From the NCBI GenBank assembly GCA_949130485.1, contig OX422193.1, positions 5,934,871 through 5,998,870 on the forward strand: DNA of 64,000 nt. Direction: 5' to 3'. The notes under the pieces are model-generated. The model was not told the DNA's origin, did not search any database, and was given only the letters and a program-made list of their open reading frames with translations. The position numbers and the translations under genes are program-made. Each line of letters opens with the position of its first letter. Position 1 is the stretch's first letter. The DNA is from Agelas oroides. Lineage: Eukaryota > Porifera > Demospongiae > Agelasida > Agelasidae. Below are positions 38,207 through 64,000 of the stretch, piece after piece.

Positions 38207-38866
38207 TTACAAGAACTTTTTTATCAGGAGGACTCCACCAGCAATAACAGCAGCAGCCAGTCCTGCTCCCATGAGAAACTGAGGGATTTCAACTTTCCAT
38301 CTCTCGTCATCAAAATGATCCATGAAAGCTTGCAATCCACCCTTTTCCTGTACCCAGTCTCTCACTCTACTCTCCATCTGTTCTTCGGTCCAATCAATAA
38401 CATCCTTGACTTTGTCTTCCATTCTGTGCTCTGCACAGTAGACTGCCAGTGAACCCGAGAACACAATGAAGGCTACTATTCTCCCCCAGTGGATATCATC
38501 CCGGAAGATCTCTGAAACAATCGACATGTATGTTTCTTTCAAATTCTGACTGGTGAGTTGCAGATGATACAGAATATCTTCAAATTGTTGTTCTCTCTCA
38601 TTAGCAAGTTGGTTAGCTATTGCATGCAAGATGTCATGTAAATCGTCTTCAACTGCATCTTCCGGATTAGATAATCGATCAGCAACTTCACTCTGATTGT
38701 GTTTTCTCAGTTGGTTGAGGATGTAATATCTGGCAAATTGCCTCATGCTCTTGGTGTTTCTGCTTCGTATTAGCACAGTTTGTTTGCTTTGCGTCGAATC
38801 TGGAAACCGTTTGCTCCCAGCAGGAAAACGACTAGCAGAAGACGGTTGGATAGTTTCCAGAGACAT
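38207..38866 (-). CDS. BCL-2-family protein, pro-survival-like, intronless
   Basis: 219 residues from the ATG at 38,866; the frame upstream has only a TTG, then a TGA. BCL-2 proteins control mitochondrial outer-membrane permeability. Helix 1/BH4-like segment at 41-56 (RQFARYYILNQLRKH). BH3-like segment near 79-92 (ILHAIANQL), in which the usual Gly-Asp pair is Ala-Asn. BH1 at 120-140 (FRDDIHWGRIVAF, with the WGR core). BH2 at 171-185 (WVQEKGGLQAFMDHF). A hydrophobic tail at 195-216 followed by KK points to a tail anchor. The BH4-like segment and WGR resemble pro-survival members, so I favour that role, but this is inference. It lies tail to tail with THG1 and head to head with the BAK-like gene at 41,483. 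The coding region has no intron, unlike both neighbouring BAK-like genes. Confidence 0.9.
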   Translation of the reverse strand: MSLETIQPSSASRFPAGSKRFPDSTQSKQTVLIRSRNTKSMRQFARYYILNQLRKHNQSEVADRLSNPEDAVEDDLHDILHAIANQLANEREQQFEDILYHLQLTSQNLKETYMSIVSEIFRDDIHWGRIVAFIVFSGSLAVYCAEHRMEDKVKDVIDWTEEQMESRVRDWVQEKGGLQAFMDHFDDERWKVEIPQFLMGAGLAAAVIAGGVLLIKKFL

Positions 38867-39659
38867 TCTACTTGACAATACCGCGAGTATAGCACCTTTT
38901 ATTCGTACACAAGTTCACCAGGTTGTAAGTAGAGCTTCTTCGTATTTTCCAATCGGTTGGATTTCTTTCTCTTTTATACTGCGCCTCGGACAAAGTCCCT
39001 ACTCTGGCTCAGGGGCGGTTGTAGCTGGAAAAAGTCACCAAGAACTAGAGCTCTATAGTAACTGTTCTTGATTTGAACCTCAAAGTAATCAACTTACGTC
39101 ATGATTTGTAATCTTAGAATTACGGAAACAGGAAAAGTTCCAAGCAAGAGACTACACAGAGGGGATAGGCTTACGATCGATTTTTACCACAAAAAGGTAA
39201 TCTCTCATCTCTATCTAGCTGATTTTCAGATAGCAGTCGTGTATTACATAGTAAGCAGTTATTTGCATAGTCTTGGGTGGTCACACCCAGTCCAGATGGG
39301 TATGTCAGTCTTGTCAGAAGACAACGAGCCCTTCTTAGGCCTAGATACAGAGATGTAAAAGGTTTAAGTTACATAGGAAGGACCTAGTGTTGTTGTCAGG
39401 CCCTCATAAAAGAGGGTCTGGTAAACATGATGGGGTGGGCGTGTACACAGTCTGTGGAATTTAAATACTTGATGGACTTTCTGTTACCAGTAGAGCCTTC
39501 TGCTAAACCAGACATTCAAAGGAGTGTTCTAAGCTTTCACCTTAGTGTTCAAAGCTTAGGCTACAACAAAGCAAAACACAGCCACTGCGGGGGAATATGG
39601 CTCTTGTGTAGTTATGATAAATTGGCTGGTTTTGTTGTCAGCTGCTGGTCTAATACATG
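38867..39659. other. Upstream region of the BCL2-like gene
   Basis: About 0.8 kb of non-coding sequence that should include the promoter. I cannot point to a specific element. Short ORFs (85 and 79 codons) have no recognisable motif. Confidence 0.5.
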
Positions 39660-48894: not shown

Positions 48895-51800
48895 CTATGA
48901 TCTCAGGTATCTGTACACCAACACAGCAAAGACCACCACAACACCCCCTATCACAAGGTGTCGCTTTGATATAGGCAGCCTGGGCAATAACCAATCTGTC
49001 ATTGCCAACAGCTGGCCCTGCATGAGTATCAAGATGAATATCCATATTTAGTGTTTTGTAAACAGCTACACATCCTACAGCATGCAGTGAGTGACTTTGC
49101 ATAACATCTAGCCTCGTTCCTAGGCCTTTCCTGCCTCCAGTTTGTGATTGTTTGCAGTATGCAGCAAGCTATATATATAGGCCTGGGAACGAGGCTGCAT
49201 GAAATGAATGATACTATATAGTGATCAGTAATCATCAATACTCAATAAAGTGATGTATCACCAATCTATGCTAGATCATGCTGCTAGCTTAGCCCTTTAT
49301 GGTCAGTATATAGCCATACACGGTACTGGCTCTGTTCACAAGATATACGGCTGCATATGCAGTCTGATATAATCTGTACTGCCCTTATAAGGATGACACT
49401 TAGTCTATTTTTTTTTACTTACCCATCCTCCAATCCTGCCAAGCCAGTCATAGAACCCTGTCCTCACTAGGAACTGGGCGAGATACCCCAGCAGCACACC
49501 TAGGAACCCAAAGATCCCCTTCAGAGCATACCTCAGGATGAAGGCCTTGCAGAGGTAGTAGCAGTAGGCAAAGACTCCAGCAATTCTACCCAAGTTAATC
49601 CTTCTAGCTGGAGAAAGAAATGGCATAGACAGAGAAATATAATAATAGTGGCCTGATATATAGCGTTGTTCCTAGGCCTCTCCCTTTAGTTTGTGTTCAA
49701 TATAATACACAGAAGTGGAAGAGCTGTGTGATATAGTCAACCACACTTCCTGTCAGTCTTTAGCCTGACGGTGTTTACACTTGCTGTGCATTTGGGTGAT
49801 GTACCTTTGTGTATTTAGCACATTATCACCAGCTTCCATTTCCTTTTCATTGGTACTGGACGGAAATTTTTACAAAAAGTTGACGTTTGTTTACATTTGG
49901 GTGTGAGCAACTGCCATTTAAGGTGAAATGGCCAACAATTCTCATTAACATGGGACTCGCCCCAACCATTGTCATGCCAGTTTCAATACGTCAATTTTTA
50001 AAGTATTTACACAACTGGGCTACATGTACTGCTATATTAGTTATGCAGGCTGTGGATACTTGATGTCAGTGGTGTATACAAGTCCATAAAACCAAAGTTG
50101 CCATACTAATTAGCACTAAATGACTGTGATCATGCTTTTACTGCTGGGAGACTACAAACACCGGACCCAGGACCCAAATTAGCACTAAATGACTGTGATC
50201 ATGCTTTTACAGCTGGGAGACTACAAACACCTGACCCAGGACCCAAATTAGCACTAAATGACTGTGATCATGCTTTTACTGCTGGGAGACTACAAACACC
50301 GGACCCAGGACCCAAATTAGCACTAAATGACTGTGATCATGCTTTTACTGCTGGGAGACTACAAACACCTGACCGAGGACCCAAATTAGCACTAAATGAC
50401 TGTGATCATGTTTTTACTGCTGGGAGACTACAAACACCGGACCCAGGACCCAAATTAGCACTAAATGACTGTGATCATGCTTTTACTGCTGGGAGACTAC
50501 AAACACCTGACCGAGGACCCAAATTAGCACTAAATGACTGTGATCATGCTTTTACTGCTGGGAGACTACAAACACCTGACCGAGGACCCAAATTAGCACT
50601 AAATGACTGTGATCATGCTTTTACTGCTGGGAGACTACAAACACCGGACCCAGGACCCAAATTAGCACTAAATGACTGTGATCATGCTTTTACTGCTGGG
50701 AGACTACAAACACCTGACCAAGGACCCAAATTAGCACTAAATGACTGTAATCATGCTTTTACTGCTGGGAGACTACAAACACCGGACCCAGGACCCAAAT
50801 TAGCACTAAATGACTGTAATCATGCTTTTACTGCTGGGAGACTACAAACACCGGACCCAGGACCCAAATTAGCACTAAATGACTAATACTGCTGAGATAG
50901 AGGCTGGACAGTATGACCTAATAATTATAGATGTTAATTGAATATAATAACTGAGCCTATGAGAATGGGAACTGTTGTTGGTACAGATGCAATTACAGTA
51001 CTACAGATTATATTTCCATAGCATTGACAAGTTGAGAGTTCAATACAAGCACATTGTCAAAGGTGAGCTCTATCATCTGTATATAAACTGAATTTTAACA
51101 TCCTACTTCATGAGCTTTTGAGTTAGAGTTACATGTACCATAATCTGGAAGTGCCATGATTAGATACTTTACCACACTATGGTAGGCAGCGTTTCCTGGA
51201 TTGGTAATACCAACTAAAACACTTTCAAAGGGGGACAGAAAAATGCAGTGAATAAAGGAGAAGCCTTTTACAACTTCTCATGGACTCTATTAGGCCTGAC
51301 AAAGTTATTCACAGATATATCAGCCCACCCTCATTTTCTGTATGGTTGCTTATACAAGAATACATGGGGGGCAAGCCCCGAGTAATGCTTGCAGACCAGT
51401 ACTGAGGTGGTTGTTTGGTTATAGATAAGCTTCTATATTGCAGTTGTAGATCACAGCACAGAGTGGCCATGTAGCTATCCCTCATGTTTACACTAGTTAA
51501 AGGAAGGCAGCTCAGATAAACTGTCATGAAGACAAATAATGCTTTTCTGACATTAAGCAAAAGGCAGTCCCTACCAGAGGTATCCCACAATGGTGCTATT
51601 CATGCTGCCTGGGTAACCACTATGGCTAACAGAGCTTAAATATATGCAGGTTAAGTCTGGCCTCCTGTTGAAACTGCAGCCTCATCCTACTTCATGAGCT
51701 TCTGAAACTCTGGTGCTTCGACAGATGTGACAAGAAAGGCCTCAAGTGCATGGAGAGATTCAGATCCCCTTCCTCCCTCTGTCTACCAACTAGGTATACA

Positions 51801-54476: not shown

Positions 54477-57400
54477 TCAATTATCATGTCTAGTATACTT
54501 CTTTCTGAGTTCATTCCCAAGTTGCTCTTTCCCCAGAAACTCCACAGCCTCAATGATGGCAGGCCAAGTGGGAGGAGGATCCACTCTATTTAGCCACACC
54601 TCCAGCATTCCAATAAGGCACTTGTGAGGGTCATGGTGGTGTTCTGCGTTTATTGCTTTTAGTGCAGCCATGGGAAGGTGGAGGTAGATGCCAATGTGCT
54701 CCCACTTGTCTGCCACCGTGTGGTAGAGGGCATCCATCAAATCTTTCATAGCTGGTGTTTGAACTACATGTATATGAATAATTATATACATGGTCAGAAA
54801 GTACAAAACGTTTATCTTCAGAGTTTATGATCTGGTCTAGTACATTGGCAGATCAAAGTCACTGATAATGTTAAACAAATATTGCATACTGCTGTGTCAG
54901 ATATCAAGGCTTATAACTAATATTGCCATTCAAAAAAGGTGTACCTTCTTCTGCTCTACTGAAACAGTTTGGAATAGCTAGCTACTCTGCATGTTTGCTA
55001 CAGCAATAATGATAATGGTAGGTCAGTACCTCACAAACAAGTTTTACAACTTGTAAAAATTATGTTCAAGTGTGGAGTATTCATAGAAACTGACCAATAA
55101 ATAATAACTAATAGTATACCATATGACCCTGAATATACGTATTACTGCCCTGTAGTTTGTAAGGTGCCTCTTTTAGAGCTGTATGGTGTAAATGAAGTTG
55201 TGTATTATTACTTATACTCAAGCAGTGAAACTAGGTATATATATATGCAGGGGCATTGTGCCTCATGCAGATTATGTGGGAATGGCTTTAGCTATAATAG
55301 CCTTATATAGTTGGTTTTCTATGTGATAGAGGGAAGTACGTCTAGCGTGCGGAGAAAATGTAAAGAAGTTAGCAAGCTGTGAGTCCCTCAATGACACTGG
55401 GCTGCCTCTAGCTCATGGACGTGGTTACGAGAAATGTACAATTTACCAACAAGAAGTATATCAGTCAGCTGCTAGCACACACGTCGCCTATTGTCTTGTG
55501 TAGTTCTAGTCTAGGTTCCTCAGTGCCGGGAACCAGGCTAGTGTAGTTCCTCTGCCATACAGTAAGTTCTTAAATCGCCCTAGCCTGCATGTTGTTGCTT
55601 TTACTGCAAATAATGAATATGGCAGTGGGGCACATAAACTACTATGCAACATTCGTATAATTCAATAGTAAACCATTACAGACACACATACATATATACA
55701 AGCACAGACCTCCAACTAAGACCTCACAAGCGCCTGCTGCACATGCACAATTATGTGCCTTGGTGTTTGGCAATTCTAGCATATCAAAAGGTTGCTTTTA
55801 ACTTCACTTACTCTGAGGGGATCCACCACAGGACGGTGAAGTATGGCTTGCCACCTCTAAATGAAACATGCAAAACATATATTTTTGAGGTATCCACTCG
55901 TTAAGGGTGGTCATATCTATACAAGACCTCAAACACATAAAAAAGCTATTGTTGACAAACCAGTTGAACTATGACCCCAAGCAACTGCTGAAAACTGCAG
56001 CTAAGCATGCATTTACAATGCACAACGGAGGATCAATTCTTTTTCGAGTAAAATTTATATAACTCCTCTGGCCTATGCTCATTGGAACACTGGTATTTCA
56101 GTTTCTCTGTCAACATCCTGCAGGAGTGGACTTGACTATAACAAATGTTGCTAAGCAGCAGAGCAAAGCATGTGCTTCTGCTTATTCTACAATAAACAGT
56201 GGCACATTATTGACTTCCCCTTATCTATTCATACTGACATTTGGCTGCATTGCTGTGTTGTAATCAATTACTGCAGTAATCCGTAGCAACTGGCTACCTT
56301 CTCATAAATAATTAAGTATTCCAACTACTCTTATCTAGTGGTGGATACTGCACAGAGTAAATTGTACCTTCCCCCTTTGGATTCAAGGTGAGGTAGATGA
56401 AGTCATGTGGTGGTTTGGCTCCAATAAGATGTACTTTGTGCATGAGGTTCATGGGGCTTCGGTCCTCCCTCTCCCACTGCACAATAAGCTGACACTCGGG
56501 GATCCACTGACCTGGTTCAAACTGATCTGCATCTTTCCTAGAGATCTATGGCCAAAATGATTTACATCAAAAGAGCTAAAAAGTGCCACACATAACAAAT
56601 AGACCATAGCAGCAGCTTAACACACCAGATGAGCGCATGTTATTACTTGCATGAAGATGTGAATCCAAACTTTGAGACAGCCATATACAAGTAATTATAT
56701 GCCAGAGTAGTTACTGCTCGCTGCTGTGGTAAATGGATTTATAAGTCATGTATATATATGTAGCTATTAAACTATTTATGTGTACTCCTCACAGTGGGGT
56801 GAAAACATGGTGTTATATACTCTTGCCACAGTAGTCACTGCTCGCTGCTGTCATGTTTACTTAGCTATTAGGCTATTTATGTGTGCTCCTCACAGTGGGG
56901 TGAGAACGTGGTGTTATTCTCCAGCCCTCCCTTGTCACCAATCCAGCAAAGTGGCCATAGTGCTCTCTCACAAACTGCAATGCAAATTTAAAGCAGTCAT
57001 GTTAAATCTGAGTTGAGCGATCTGTAGGAATACATACCGTATTTTTTGCTTCAAGGTCTTGTGCAATGACAAAGTAGTATCTCCAGTCATGCATCTGCTT
57101 CATAGTGTAGTACAAATGTGCACAGTAAGACCGTGGGGTGCTCTTTCTTCCAGTGACAGCCAACCCAGAGAAGTGGCTCAGCTGGATGCTACCATAGGAG
57201 CTGTGCCTGGTGAAGACTCCTCCATCCACCTGTCTGAACCTGTAGGGAAGGTCATTCTGAGAGCACCTGGCAGAGACAATGCGGAGATTGGACAATGTTG
57301 CCTCATCTTCTCCGAGTGCGCAGTGCTGGATTTCCAGTGTCACAGGCCAGGTAAACTTGCAGGGTGCTGAGAGCCAAAAGACAGGGCTGAGGAGGACTGA

Positions 57401-59492
57401 ATCCCCAGGACGCTGAAACTGCCTAGAGAGACTCATTCCAATGTTGATCCTGCACTCTTCCATGCCAGCTGGAAAGCTGCCCTTGTGGACATGAAGCTTC
57501 AGTCCATAATCTTTCCACCCAAATGAGCCTCCCTGGTGTGGAATTCTAAACTTTACTACTGTAATCATCTCCACTCCACGTATAAAGCCTGGAAAAGGAA
57601 TGAAATCGCAGTATAAGCGGCAATAATTATGTGGCTGAAATAAAAGAGGTCACTTCTGAAAGTACATGTATCAAGTGCTTTCCCTACTAGTGATCTCCAC
57701 AGCAGTAGCCTCTCCACATGTCTGAACAGCCACCACCTGGCAATCTGGACTGCTCTGAACTTCCACGTCTTTGCTATCAGGACTGTTCTGGACAGCCACA
57801 TCTTTGCAATCTGCCTTGGTCTGCTGCTCTTTCCTCTCAATTTCAGATATGTCTACCTCAAACTCCTGCTTACTGCTAGGCATCTAAGAAGACTGTGATT
57901 GTACACCAGTATGCATTTCAGCTACCACTATACTATGTAAATACAGGCCCCCCCAACATACCATGGATGGTGATGGTAAGATAGCAGGCGTTCTTTTGAA
58001 GAAGTGCCAAATCTCCTCAGCTAGGTCTCCCATCTGAATATCTCGAAAAATCCTCAGCAACACTTGCCAAGTGGGAGGTACGGAACTTTTTTCAAGGAGC
58101 CATGCTTTAAACATTGCTTTCAGTCCCTCAACTGGATTGTTTTCCATTCTGAGACTGTCAAGAAGAGATTCATGAAAGTCTAATGCTGGGACCATAATAG
58201 GAAACTTTGGGGCTAGCTTGTTAAAGAAGGGAATGCCAGCTACTTCTTCCAAGCGATCAAGTGCACTCATGTCAAAGCGGGCATCAGGAAATGAGGTTAC
58301 TGTGGAAATGAAAAGCAATTGGCTGTCGTGTTAATATTGCCCATTCTCACTGAAAACCAATACATGCACATGGGGCAATTGCATGCAATATAATATATTC
58401 ACCACACAAATTCACTGAGACATGCACCTCTAATGTTTGCTCTGAATAAACGAGAGGACGACCCAGATTGAACATCTACCCCCACCACAAGTAGTTCTCC
58501 AGCAGGGAGGACTACAGTGCAAGTAGAATAAAAGGCAGCAGGAAGGTTTCCAACATGATCCCAGCAGTTGTTGTTAGGTGAGTAGGCATGGATAGCTGAG
58601 TTGTAGGGGTGCCCTTCCCCCACACTTATCAACTGGTTTCTAAGTACAGCAGGTGTGGAAGACTCTAGAGGTGTGCCAGGTAGCTCTTTCCACACTGGAG
58701 TCACATTTGAGTGGGCAGTGCCTATCAAAGATTCCAAAGATGTGTAATAGACCTGGCTGTCTTGTTCAACTCCACCAGCTAGATACCAGTTCCTCTCATG
58801 AAGAGTGGACTTCATACCAGAACAAGCTCTGGGAAGAGACTGGATCTTTCTCCACCGGCAACCGTCATACATCTCTACTGAATCTAGAGGATCAAATTCA
58901 CTACCACCGCACCCCCCAGCCACAATGAGATGGTCACCTACACTCACAGCAGATGCTTGACAGCGTTTTGTCATCATTGGAATGTGGGTTTGGATCCAGT
59001 GGTGCTTCTCATCCAAGACCCACAGTTGGTCGGTGGCCATTTCAGTATCTGGATCCATACCTCCAACCAGCACCAGCTGGGAGTGGTACGTACTGAGTGC
59101 ATACCACTGGGTGGGTGTGTCTACTATCTCCCAGGAATCCTTGGTGAAGTCACAGATGAGGAGCCTGGATGATGATCCGGGATCCATGCTCCCTCCTCCA
59201 ACATAGACCTTGCTGCCTAGCACAACTGCCTGGGCATTATATACACCCACTGGTGCCTTGCAGTGTTCCCTCCACTCCCACGATGCAAGGGGGTAGAGGA
59301 GGTCCACCTGAGGCTAGAGATCGAGAGATGACGGTAGTGAGACCATGCACGTGATCTCTGGCACTGAACAGCAAATAAACCACACACAAAGACGAGTCCA
59401 TAATTCCACAATTTAATGTCGGCGGCCTAACCAATAGCAAACATGACCACAACAGCGAGCAGAATTGCAGCTACCTGGGGTGGTTGATCCAT
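54477..59492 (-). CDS. Kelch - death domain - ZU5 - UPA-like - death domain protein, seven exons
   Basis: Exons (minus): 59,492-59,475; 59,307-58,428; 58,299-57,962; 57,883-57,688; 57,588-57,038; 56,545-56,368; 54,763-54,477. They sum to 2,448 nt in one frame (815 residues), all GT-AG. Residues 7-299 form a six-blade Kelch propeller, with six motifs such as YVGGG, LVGGM, IVAGG and YLAGG. Residues ~315-405 are a death domain (PPTWQVLLRIFRDI). Residues 413-477 are an acidic linker with three SPDxKDVxVQ-like repeats. Residues 484-625 are ZU5, containing SHFSGL at 615-620. Residues 626-720 are UPA-like. Residues 725-815 are a second death domain (PPTWPAIIEAVEFLG). There is no signal peptide or membrane segment, so it is probably cytosolic. 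PIDD1, UNC5 and ankyrin carry ZU5-UPA-death tails, and PIDD1 self-cleaves at HFS motifs. The role as death-signalling sensor or scaffold is inferred. The 18-nt first exon is the least certain part. Confidence 0.85.
54764..56367 (-). other. Last intron of the Kelch/ZU5/death gene
   Basis: 1.6 kb without coding signal. A weak AGCCTC-type hairpin ('ctaggttcct...gggaaccaggctag') lies at about 55,511-55,541. Confidence 0.55.
56705..56925 (+). repeat. Imperfect ~100-125-bp tandem duplication
   Basis: 'actgctcgctgctgt', 'actatttatgtgt' and 'ctcctcacagtggggtga' each occur twice, about 100-125 bp apart, in the intron between the ZU5 and UPA-like exons. Confidence 0.75.
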
Positions 59493-62425: not shown

Positions 62426-64000
62426 TTAGACATATACATGGTTGAGATAGTTAGTCAACAAAACTACTGAGATCACTGCTACAAGAAGCTTGGCTGTGTT
62501 GATGGCTGTTGGACTGGTTGCAGATGATATTGGTGTTGATTCAGTAGGCTTAGTATGAAGTGATGTTGGTTTAGTAGGCTTAGTATGAAGTGATGTTGGT
62601 TTAGTAGGCTTAGTAGGCAATGATGGTTTAGTAGGCTTAGTAGGCAATGATGGTTTAGTAGGTTTAGTAGGCAATGATGGTTTAGTAGGTTTAGTAGGCA
62701 ATGACGTTGGTGTAGTAGGTACTGAAGTGGTAGTTGGTAACACTGATGGCAAGCTAGATGTAGATATGGTTGCTGATGTTACTAGAATGGTTGTCGATGC
62801 CTCTGGTATGGGTGTTGAGGCTACTGGAATTGTTGTCGATGCCACTGGGATGGTTGTCGACGCCACTGGGATGGTTGCTGATGCCACTGGGATGAGTGTT
62901 GATGTCACTTGGATGGTTGTTGATGTCACCGGAATGGTTGTAGATGCTTCTGGAATAGGTGTAGATGCCACTGGCATGGTTGTCGACGCCACTGGGATGG
63001 GTGTCGATACTACTGGGATGGTTGTTGACTCCACTGGGATGGGTGTCGATACTACTGGGATAGTTGTCGATGCTTCTGGAACAGGTGTGGATGCCACTGG
63101 CATGGTTGTCGACGCCACTGGGATGGTTGTCGATGCCACTGGGATGGTCGTTGATACTACTGGGATGGGTGTTGATACTACTGGGATGGGTGTTGATGCT
63201 TCTGGAACAGGTGTGGGTGCCACTGGCATGGTTGTCGACGCCACTGGGATGGGTGTTGATACTACTGGGACGGTTGTTGACTCCACTGGGATGGTTGTCG
63301 ATGCCACTGGGATGGTCGTTGACTCCACTGGGATGGGTGTCGATACTACTGGGATGGTCGTTGACTCCACTGGGATGGGTGTCGATACTACTGGGATAGC
63401 TGTCGATGCTTCTGGAACAGGTGTCGATGCTTCTGGAATAGGTGTGGATGCCACTGGCATGGTTGTTGATACTACTGGGATAGTTGTCGATGCCACTGGG
63501 ATGGTTGTCGATGCCACTGGGATGGTCGTTGACTCCACTGGGATGGGTGTCGATACTACTGGGATGGCTGTCGATGCTTCTGGAACAGGTGTGGATGCCA
63601 CTGGCATCGTTGTCGACGCCACTGGCATGGGTGTTGATGCCACTGGGATGGGTGTTGACTCCACTGGGATAGCTGTCGATGCTTCTGGAACAGGTGTGGA
63701 TGCCACTGGCATGGTTGTTGATGCCACTGGGATGGGTGTCGATGCCACTGGGATGGGTGTCGATACTACTGGGATGGTTGTTGATGCCACTGGGATGGTT
63801 GTTGATGCCACTGGGATGTTTGTTGATGTTCCTGGGATGGTTGTTGACACAACCGGGATGGGTGTTGATGACAATGAAATGGGTGTTGATGACGTAGGGA
63901 TAGGTGTGGATGCAACTGAGCTGGTTGTCAACATAGGAGTGTTGGTAGCAAGTAGACTTGGTGTACAACTGAGGTAGGTGGATGATGTTACTGCTGTGGG
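62426..64000 (-). CDS. Mucin-like Ser/Thr/Pro repeat protein, 3' part (partial)
   Basis: The frame is open from the right window edge to a stop at 62,426, so the 5' end lies outside (at least 524 residues here; an internal ATG at 63,934 is not necessarily the start). It has about 50 heptads of the type ASTTIPV (21-bp unit), then SLPTKPTKP nonapeptides (27-bp unit) and TSLHTKPTKP. Next comes a short TSP-rich spacer. A C-terminal hydrophobic stretch (KLLVAVISVVLLTNYL) ends near the stop, fitting a GPI-attachment signal or a tail anchor. Dense Ser/Thr/Pro suggests a heavily O-glycosylated extracellular stalk. I know no specific family. The same 21-bp period leaves two other frames open over 400 codons; I chose this one because of the Ser/Thr/Pro bias and the hydrophobic end. 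Confidence 0.7.
   Translation of the reverse strand, partial: PTAVTSSTYLSCTPSLLATNTPMLTTSSVASTPIPTSSTPISLSSTPIPVVSTTIPGTSTNIPVASTTIPVASTTIPVVSTPIPVASTPIPVASTTMPVASTPVPEASTAIPVESTPIPVASTPMPVASTTMPVASTPVPEASTAIPVVSTPIPVESTTIPVASTTIPVASTTIPVVSTTMPVASTPIPEASTPVPEASTAIPVVSTPIPVESTTIPVVSTPIPVESTTIPVASTTIPVESTTVPVVSTPIPVASTTMPVAPTPVPEASTPIPVVSTPIPVVSTTIPVASTTIPVASTTMPVASTPVPEASTTIPVVSTPIPVESTTIPVVSTPIPVASTTMPVASTPIPEASTTIPVTSTTIQVTSTLIPVASATIPVASTTIPVASTTIPVASTPIPEASTTILVTSATISTSSLPSVLPTTTSVPTTPTSLPTKPTKPSLPTKPTKPSLPTKPTKPSLPTKPTKPTSLHTKPTKPTSLHTKPTESTPISSATSPTAINTAKLLVAVISVVLLTNYLNHVYV

Follow-up and report, generated by a model that had tools for sequence, protein, structure and literature searches.

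The window analysed here is a stretch of 64,000 nucleotides of the sponge Agelas oroides, corresponding to positions 5,934,871-5,998,870 of contig C11 (OX422193.1); the genome searched comprised 259 Mb in 141 contigs. On the minus strand of the window, between positions 54,477 and 59,492, a single open frame links a Kelch propeller, a death domain, a ZU5 domain and a second death domain, and in this the preliminary description of the locus was right. The modelled coding sequence is formed by nine exons joined in phase, 2,580 nt encoding 859 amino acids (aa), and it is free of stops until its end. By sequence comparison, the architecture is very probably Kelch, death domain 1 (DD1), linker, ZU5, a region in the position of a UPA domain, and death domain 2 (DD2). 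Seven exons and 815 residues had been proposed before; that earlier model corresponds to the present one without exon 6 (27 aa), without exon 8 (15 aa) and without two residues at the acceptor of the Kelch exon, each of these choices being frame-preserving.

The start codon was tentatively placed in exon 1 (59,475-59,492), which encodes only the six codons MDQPPQ and is a guess, because the frame is also open for 41 codons upstream of the ATG. Exon 2 (58,428-59,313, aa 7-301) encodes the Kelch propeller, recognized by Pfam, with an acceptor and a phase-1 donor common to L053-L055, and exon 3 (57,962-58,299, aa 302-414) encodes DD1, recognized by Pfam Death and by comparison with family members. 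Exon 4 (57,688-57,883, aa 415-479) is a variable linker whose repeat units differ among paralogs; a short SPDCQEVAVQN-like unit is present in many copies in L010 and in few in the window gene. Exon 5 (57,038-57,588, aa 480-663) contains the ZU5 domain, assigned by Pfam, PDB profile and fold match, and the start of the UPA-position region, which continues in exon 6 (56,894-56,974; shorter by 66 nt than its counterparts in the paralogs) and ends in exon 7 (56,368-56,545), placed by the model and the paralogs. A short linker, exon 8 (55,812-55,856), was placed by splice signals and frame, and exon 9 (54,477-54,763) carries DD2, assigned by Pfam and a family profile, together with the stop codon. 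Exon 6 (81 nt), present in 29 of 29 compared paralogs, is well supported by these comparisons. Exon 8 (45 nt) is less so: its frame and splice signals are good, and a short DNA search gave no paralog match for it, the only likeness being one seen by eye in L010 and L037.

Pfam searches with the 859-residue product detected Kelch (PF24681, 2.2e-19; Kelch_6 and Kelch_1 were also matched), one stretch of ZU5 (PF00791, 1.3e-5, 25.8 bits with a cut-off of 21) and two stretches of Death (PF00531, 4.6e-5, 23.9 bits with a cut-off of 22.6), and no UPA match on the same product. When the death domains were searched singly, both scored below the Pfam cut-off, DD1 with 18.2 bits and DD2 with 14.2 bits. 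Five of ten members of the DD1 family matched Pfam Death, the best at 3.5e-5, and the DD1 family profile found nothing better than 0.16 in the PDB. In the DD2 family, four of eight members matched Pfam, the window's own DD2 being among the non-matching ones, and the family profile reached the death domains of FADD (9e-4), CRADD (1.4e-3) and PIDD (0.03) in the PDB. A PDB profile search with the ZU5 exon recovered ZO-1 (7.3e-10) and ankyrin-3 (2.4e-5); ZO-1 and the ankyrins were also its fold matches, and Foldseek with the exon-5 model gave a single match below 0.001, ZO-1 (4.4e-4), with UNC5b at 0.034. When the C-terminal half was searched as a single sequence against the PDB, nothing matched at E up to 1. 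The region after Ser620 is called UPA by position only, since it sits between the ZU5 and a death domain. The interpretation offered in the preliminary description is supported in part.

The gene belongs to a multi-copy family. Kelch, DD1, ZU5 and DD2 follow one another in that order on one strand at 17 loci in this genome, spread over nine contigs. The Kelch exon matched 132 stretches of the genome at E up to 1e-20, and many of these belong to other Kelch genes; the DD1 exon gave 31 matches and the DD2 exon 150 (150 of 822 candidates scored), and in a further genome search 115 of 149 matches were sorted as exon-5 (ZU5) places. Loci were assembled from 43 Kelch places (the best 44 of the 132 matches, two adjoining ones merged), the 31 DD1 matches, 135 ZU5 places, some of which are fragments and from which two matches limited to the end of exon 5 were left aside, and the 150 scored DD2 matches. 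Besides the 17 complete places, 8 lacked only a detected DD2, 4 lacked only a detected DD1 (one of these has a DD1 match 4.4 kb off, beyond the 4-kb limit), 2 were Kelch-DD1 and 12 were Kelch alone. Among the 17 loci, C18:2222683 has internal stops and C18:2736743 has one TAG in its Kelch match. In two Kelch-ZU5-DD2 loci, C10:802895 and C10:841903, the gap between Kelch and ZU5 is only 541 and 352 bp, which probably makes them a sister form lacking DD1. The idea that the gene is unique in the genome was dropped once the 149 matches just mentioned turned up.

The exon borders shared by the family agree in splice sites and phases in the loci compared letter by letter, where the Kelch matches were seen in part only. 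Counting the window gene, acceptors were kept in 17 of 17 DD1, 31 of 32 ZU5, 30 of 30 exon 6 and 27 of 29 exon 7 sequences. Median dN/dS, for pairs with dS below 1, was 0.25 for ZU5 (362 pairs), 0.36 for DD1 (90), 0.28 for DD2 (65) and 0.33 for Kelch (37), pairs that share history and are not independent; no pair exceeded 1, and positive selection in the Kelch exon, considered as a candidate, was rejected (0 of 37 pairs above 1). From this calculation the DD2 exon of the window gene and its exons 4 and 6-8 were omitted, and one paralog set was reduced by 3 of 29 members, one because of a stop and two because an exon was missing from the sequence compared. The four tested domain exons are under purifying selection. 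Considering that 17 loci repeat the domain order, that splice sites and phases match, that the HFS motif described below is conserved and that selection is purifying, the order is more than chance. It might be argued that two separate genes, one Kelch-death and one ZU5-death, merely adjoin here, a view to which the long gap ahead of the last exon lends something. We regard it as highly improbable, taking into account the 17 loci with the same order and strand, the agreement of splice phases and of the linker exon among the loci compared letter by letter, and the distance of only 843 bp from Kelch to ZU5 in the window gene; these comparisons argue strongly for one gene.

Near the end of the ZU5 domain the frame reads His-Phe-Ser (HFS), at 57,167-57,175 as previously indicated; the codons run from 57,175 to 57,167 and the residues are now numbered 618-620, not 616-618, and self-cleavage is predicted to fall between Phe619 and Ser620. 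Among 70 ZU5 exons of the family, including that of the window gene, the Ser is kept in 68, the Phe in 67 and the His in 57, and the Ser ranks 12 of 178 positions by conservation. In a second batch of paralogs, where 40 of 84 exons were read, HFS was present in 28 and xFS in 37; L062 could not be aligned across the site. The motif was also found in 110 of 121 database relatives from public assemblies, the closest listed of 613, some of which may be from the same species; this set was formed by P0001, P0002 and 119 of 120 listed sequences, P0046, the window's own, being left out. Among 30 close exons the HFS codons show synonymous changes and the residues are mostly unchanged, and in some paralogs the His is replaced by Gln, Arg, Cys or Asn. 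A cleavage site would be expected to show such a pattern. Other ZU5 genes of the genome carry near their ZU5 end HFS (L041), HFT (L046, L048) or HFC (L040, L050, L007), Cys and Thr being nucleophiles as well, and P0002, a 531-residue protein with the same ZU5 type, carries SFS, the form of the site in CARD8 and NLRP1.

The position of the site can be compared with those treated in PMC3210808. According to that work, PIDD is cleaved directly after each ZU5, at HF/S; His624 and Leu677 of UNC5b, 53 residues apart, are paired with His252 and Phe296 of CARD8, 44 apart, so that UNC5b has Leu where CARD8 has Phe. In the window protein 51 residues separate an invariant ZU5 His (aa 568) from Phe619. 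The same work regards the His as important for function in PIDD and Nup98 and reports that mutating the residue at that His position had little effect in Nup98 and CARD8.

The window protein shares with PIDD1 the succession of ZU5, UPA (here by position) and C-terminal death domain, a DD2 family profile that reaches the PIDD death domain, and HF/S directly after ZU5 (for PIDD1, according to PMC3210808). It differs by having Kelch at the front where PIDD1 has LRR, which Pfam did not find here, one ZU5 in place of two, and an extra death domain ahead of ZU5. Compared with the FIIND proteins NLRP1 and CARD8, it ends in a death domain and not in a CARD, Pfam found no NACHT, and no conserved His lies at the FIIND catalytic spacing. 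The predicted protein is thus neither PIDD1 (no LRR, one ZU5) nor a FIIND protein of known kind (death, not CARD), and by analogy it may work like both. In contrast to UNC5 receptors and ankyrins, Pfam matched no Ig, thrombospondin or ankyrin repeat; those proteins are not known to be cut at this site. MACC1 and SH3BP4 also combine ZU5-UPA with two death domains; they have an SH3 domain, their death domains stand in tandem at the C-terminal end, and they are not known to contain Kelch. For Amphimedon, PMC8195603 describes TRADD-N expansions and large, lineage-specific collections of death-like domains that are combined with varied partners, as in this family, and it also mentions UPA-ZU5 fusions in animals; Pfam found no TRADD-N here, and the word Kelch is absent from the main text of that paper. 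A paper on sponge NLRs mentions NACHT-ZU5. The preliminary description knew of no described protein with this order, and the combination of Kelch, ZU5 and death was indeed not found in the open-licence literature searched; all the parts are known, and it is their order that was not found there.

In our view these data are best explained, with somewhat better than even confidence, by a multi-copy death-signalling family with self-cleavage at ZU5 and release of a fragment. The view builds on the gene structure supported by comparison, the domain order, the conservation of the family and an HFS kept at the expected place; cleavage, association, sensing and output are proposed by analogy with PIDD and NLRP1/CARD8. 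As in PIDD and CARD8/NLRP1, Ser620 of the folded protein would attack the bond that joins it to Phe619 where ZU5 ends, giving an N-terminal Kelch-DD1-ZU5 and a C-terminal UPA-DD2 piece that would remain associated. The Kelch side would then sense a change or be degraded, freeing UPA-DD2, which would nucleate death-domain partners. Self-cleavage in the family seems likely; self-cleavage with regulated release in the window copy is proposed only tentatively, at somewhat less than even odds. A more elaborate version, which we consider distinctly unlikely, makes the Kelch propeller a bait or degradation handle in an animal family of self-cleaving death receptors: losing the Kelch-DD1-ZU5 piece would free UPA-DD2, a functional-degradation switch of the NLRP1 type that uses a PIDD-like site, and copies short of part of UPA, such as the window copy, would act as unrestrained or blocking variants.

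The ZU5-UPA module might instead be an uncut scaffold, as in ankyrin, UNC5 and ZO-1, with HFS as a structural turn that packs the Phe into the sandwich and the death domains recruiting partners. The best sequence and fold matches, the ZU5 domains of ZO-1 and ankyrin, speak for this, and neither is known to be cut at this site; in addition, HF is kept, followed by Cys or Thr, in other ZU5 genes of the genome. That the Ser persists in 68 of the 70 family exons next to a His that varies (57 of 70), and that UNC5b has Leu at the position of the CARD8 Phe, make the scaffold unlikely in our estimation. Several results weigh against cleavage and release nonetheless. The Ser could be retained for a structural role. 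At the FIIND spacing of about 27 residues before the Ser no His is conserved (Leu in 67 of 70), although loops may shift its place; the fold match to NLRP1 was no higher than unrelated ones, and the AlphaFold model of exon 5 has pLDDT below 50 at exon-5 residues 111-152, around HFS. An AlphaFold model of P0001, meant to represent the complete module, was dropped (mean pLDDT 45.9). Pfam UPA and FIIND were absent at E up to 10 from a 270-residue ZU5-UPA piece and at E up to 1 from nine family members. In other assemblies, 108 candidates for the Kelch-DD1 pair included none that was significant, which is weak evidence of absence because many of the listed protein hits look like single-exon frames, and the C-terminal half was found at similar length only in P0001 and P0002.

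The lower odds given to cleavage and release in the window copy are due to a loss of 22 residues. In its exon 6, 66 nt are gone in frame from the middle of the UPA-position region, at approximately 56,945-56,946 in an alignment with seven paralogs, and all of the 29 compared paralogs keep them; some miss one to four residues of this stretch and none misses the whole. If the region is a UPA, the C-terminal piece would lack part of the fold by which it is held or assembled, and the copy may be altered or failing: dead, unrestrained or a blocker. It is possible, although we lean against it, that this gene is a decaying or altered paralog in which the loss spoils regulated holding and leaves a dead, always-released or blocking product, a view compatible with cleavage and release at the level of the family. 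Besides the deletion itself, the dN/dS of its ZU5 to the two nearest relatives, 0.37 and 0.39 versus the family median of 0.25, points that way, but the modelled coding sequence has no stop or frameshift over its 2,580 nt, dN/dS is well below 1, HFS is intact, and the loss could be an effect of assembly or allele. Intact paralogs are better objects for testing cleavage and release than the window copy.

Other features were observed in the surroundings of the family. A Bcl-2 family frame (PF00452, 2.7e-23) lies at 38,207-38,911 of the window, minus strand, about 15.6 kb from the Kelch-ZU5 gene. Long open frames of tandem repeats at 50,110-50,886 and 62,589-63,977 are probably not genes. In P0001, a JGI protein, the end of a biopterin-dependent hydroxylase (PF00351, 9.2e-37) is joined to a ZU5 module of the Kelch-ZU5 family, and in the genome studied here hydroxylase exons at C11:8804615-8809166 precede a ZU5 exon at C11:8817365 by about 8 kb on the same strand.

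If the site does cut, self-cleaving ZU5-UPA death switches would extend beyond LRR and NACHT sensors to Kelch propellers, a coupling that would have multiplied to 17 or more loci in the genome studied. The HFS, QFS, RFS, CFS and NFS forms are natural variants with which the requirements of the site could be probed, and the natural deletion of the window copy could serve to probe what holds the fragments together. The family would then represent, if this reading is true, a known cell-death switch equipped with a sensor of new design.

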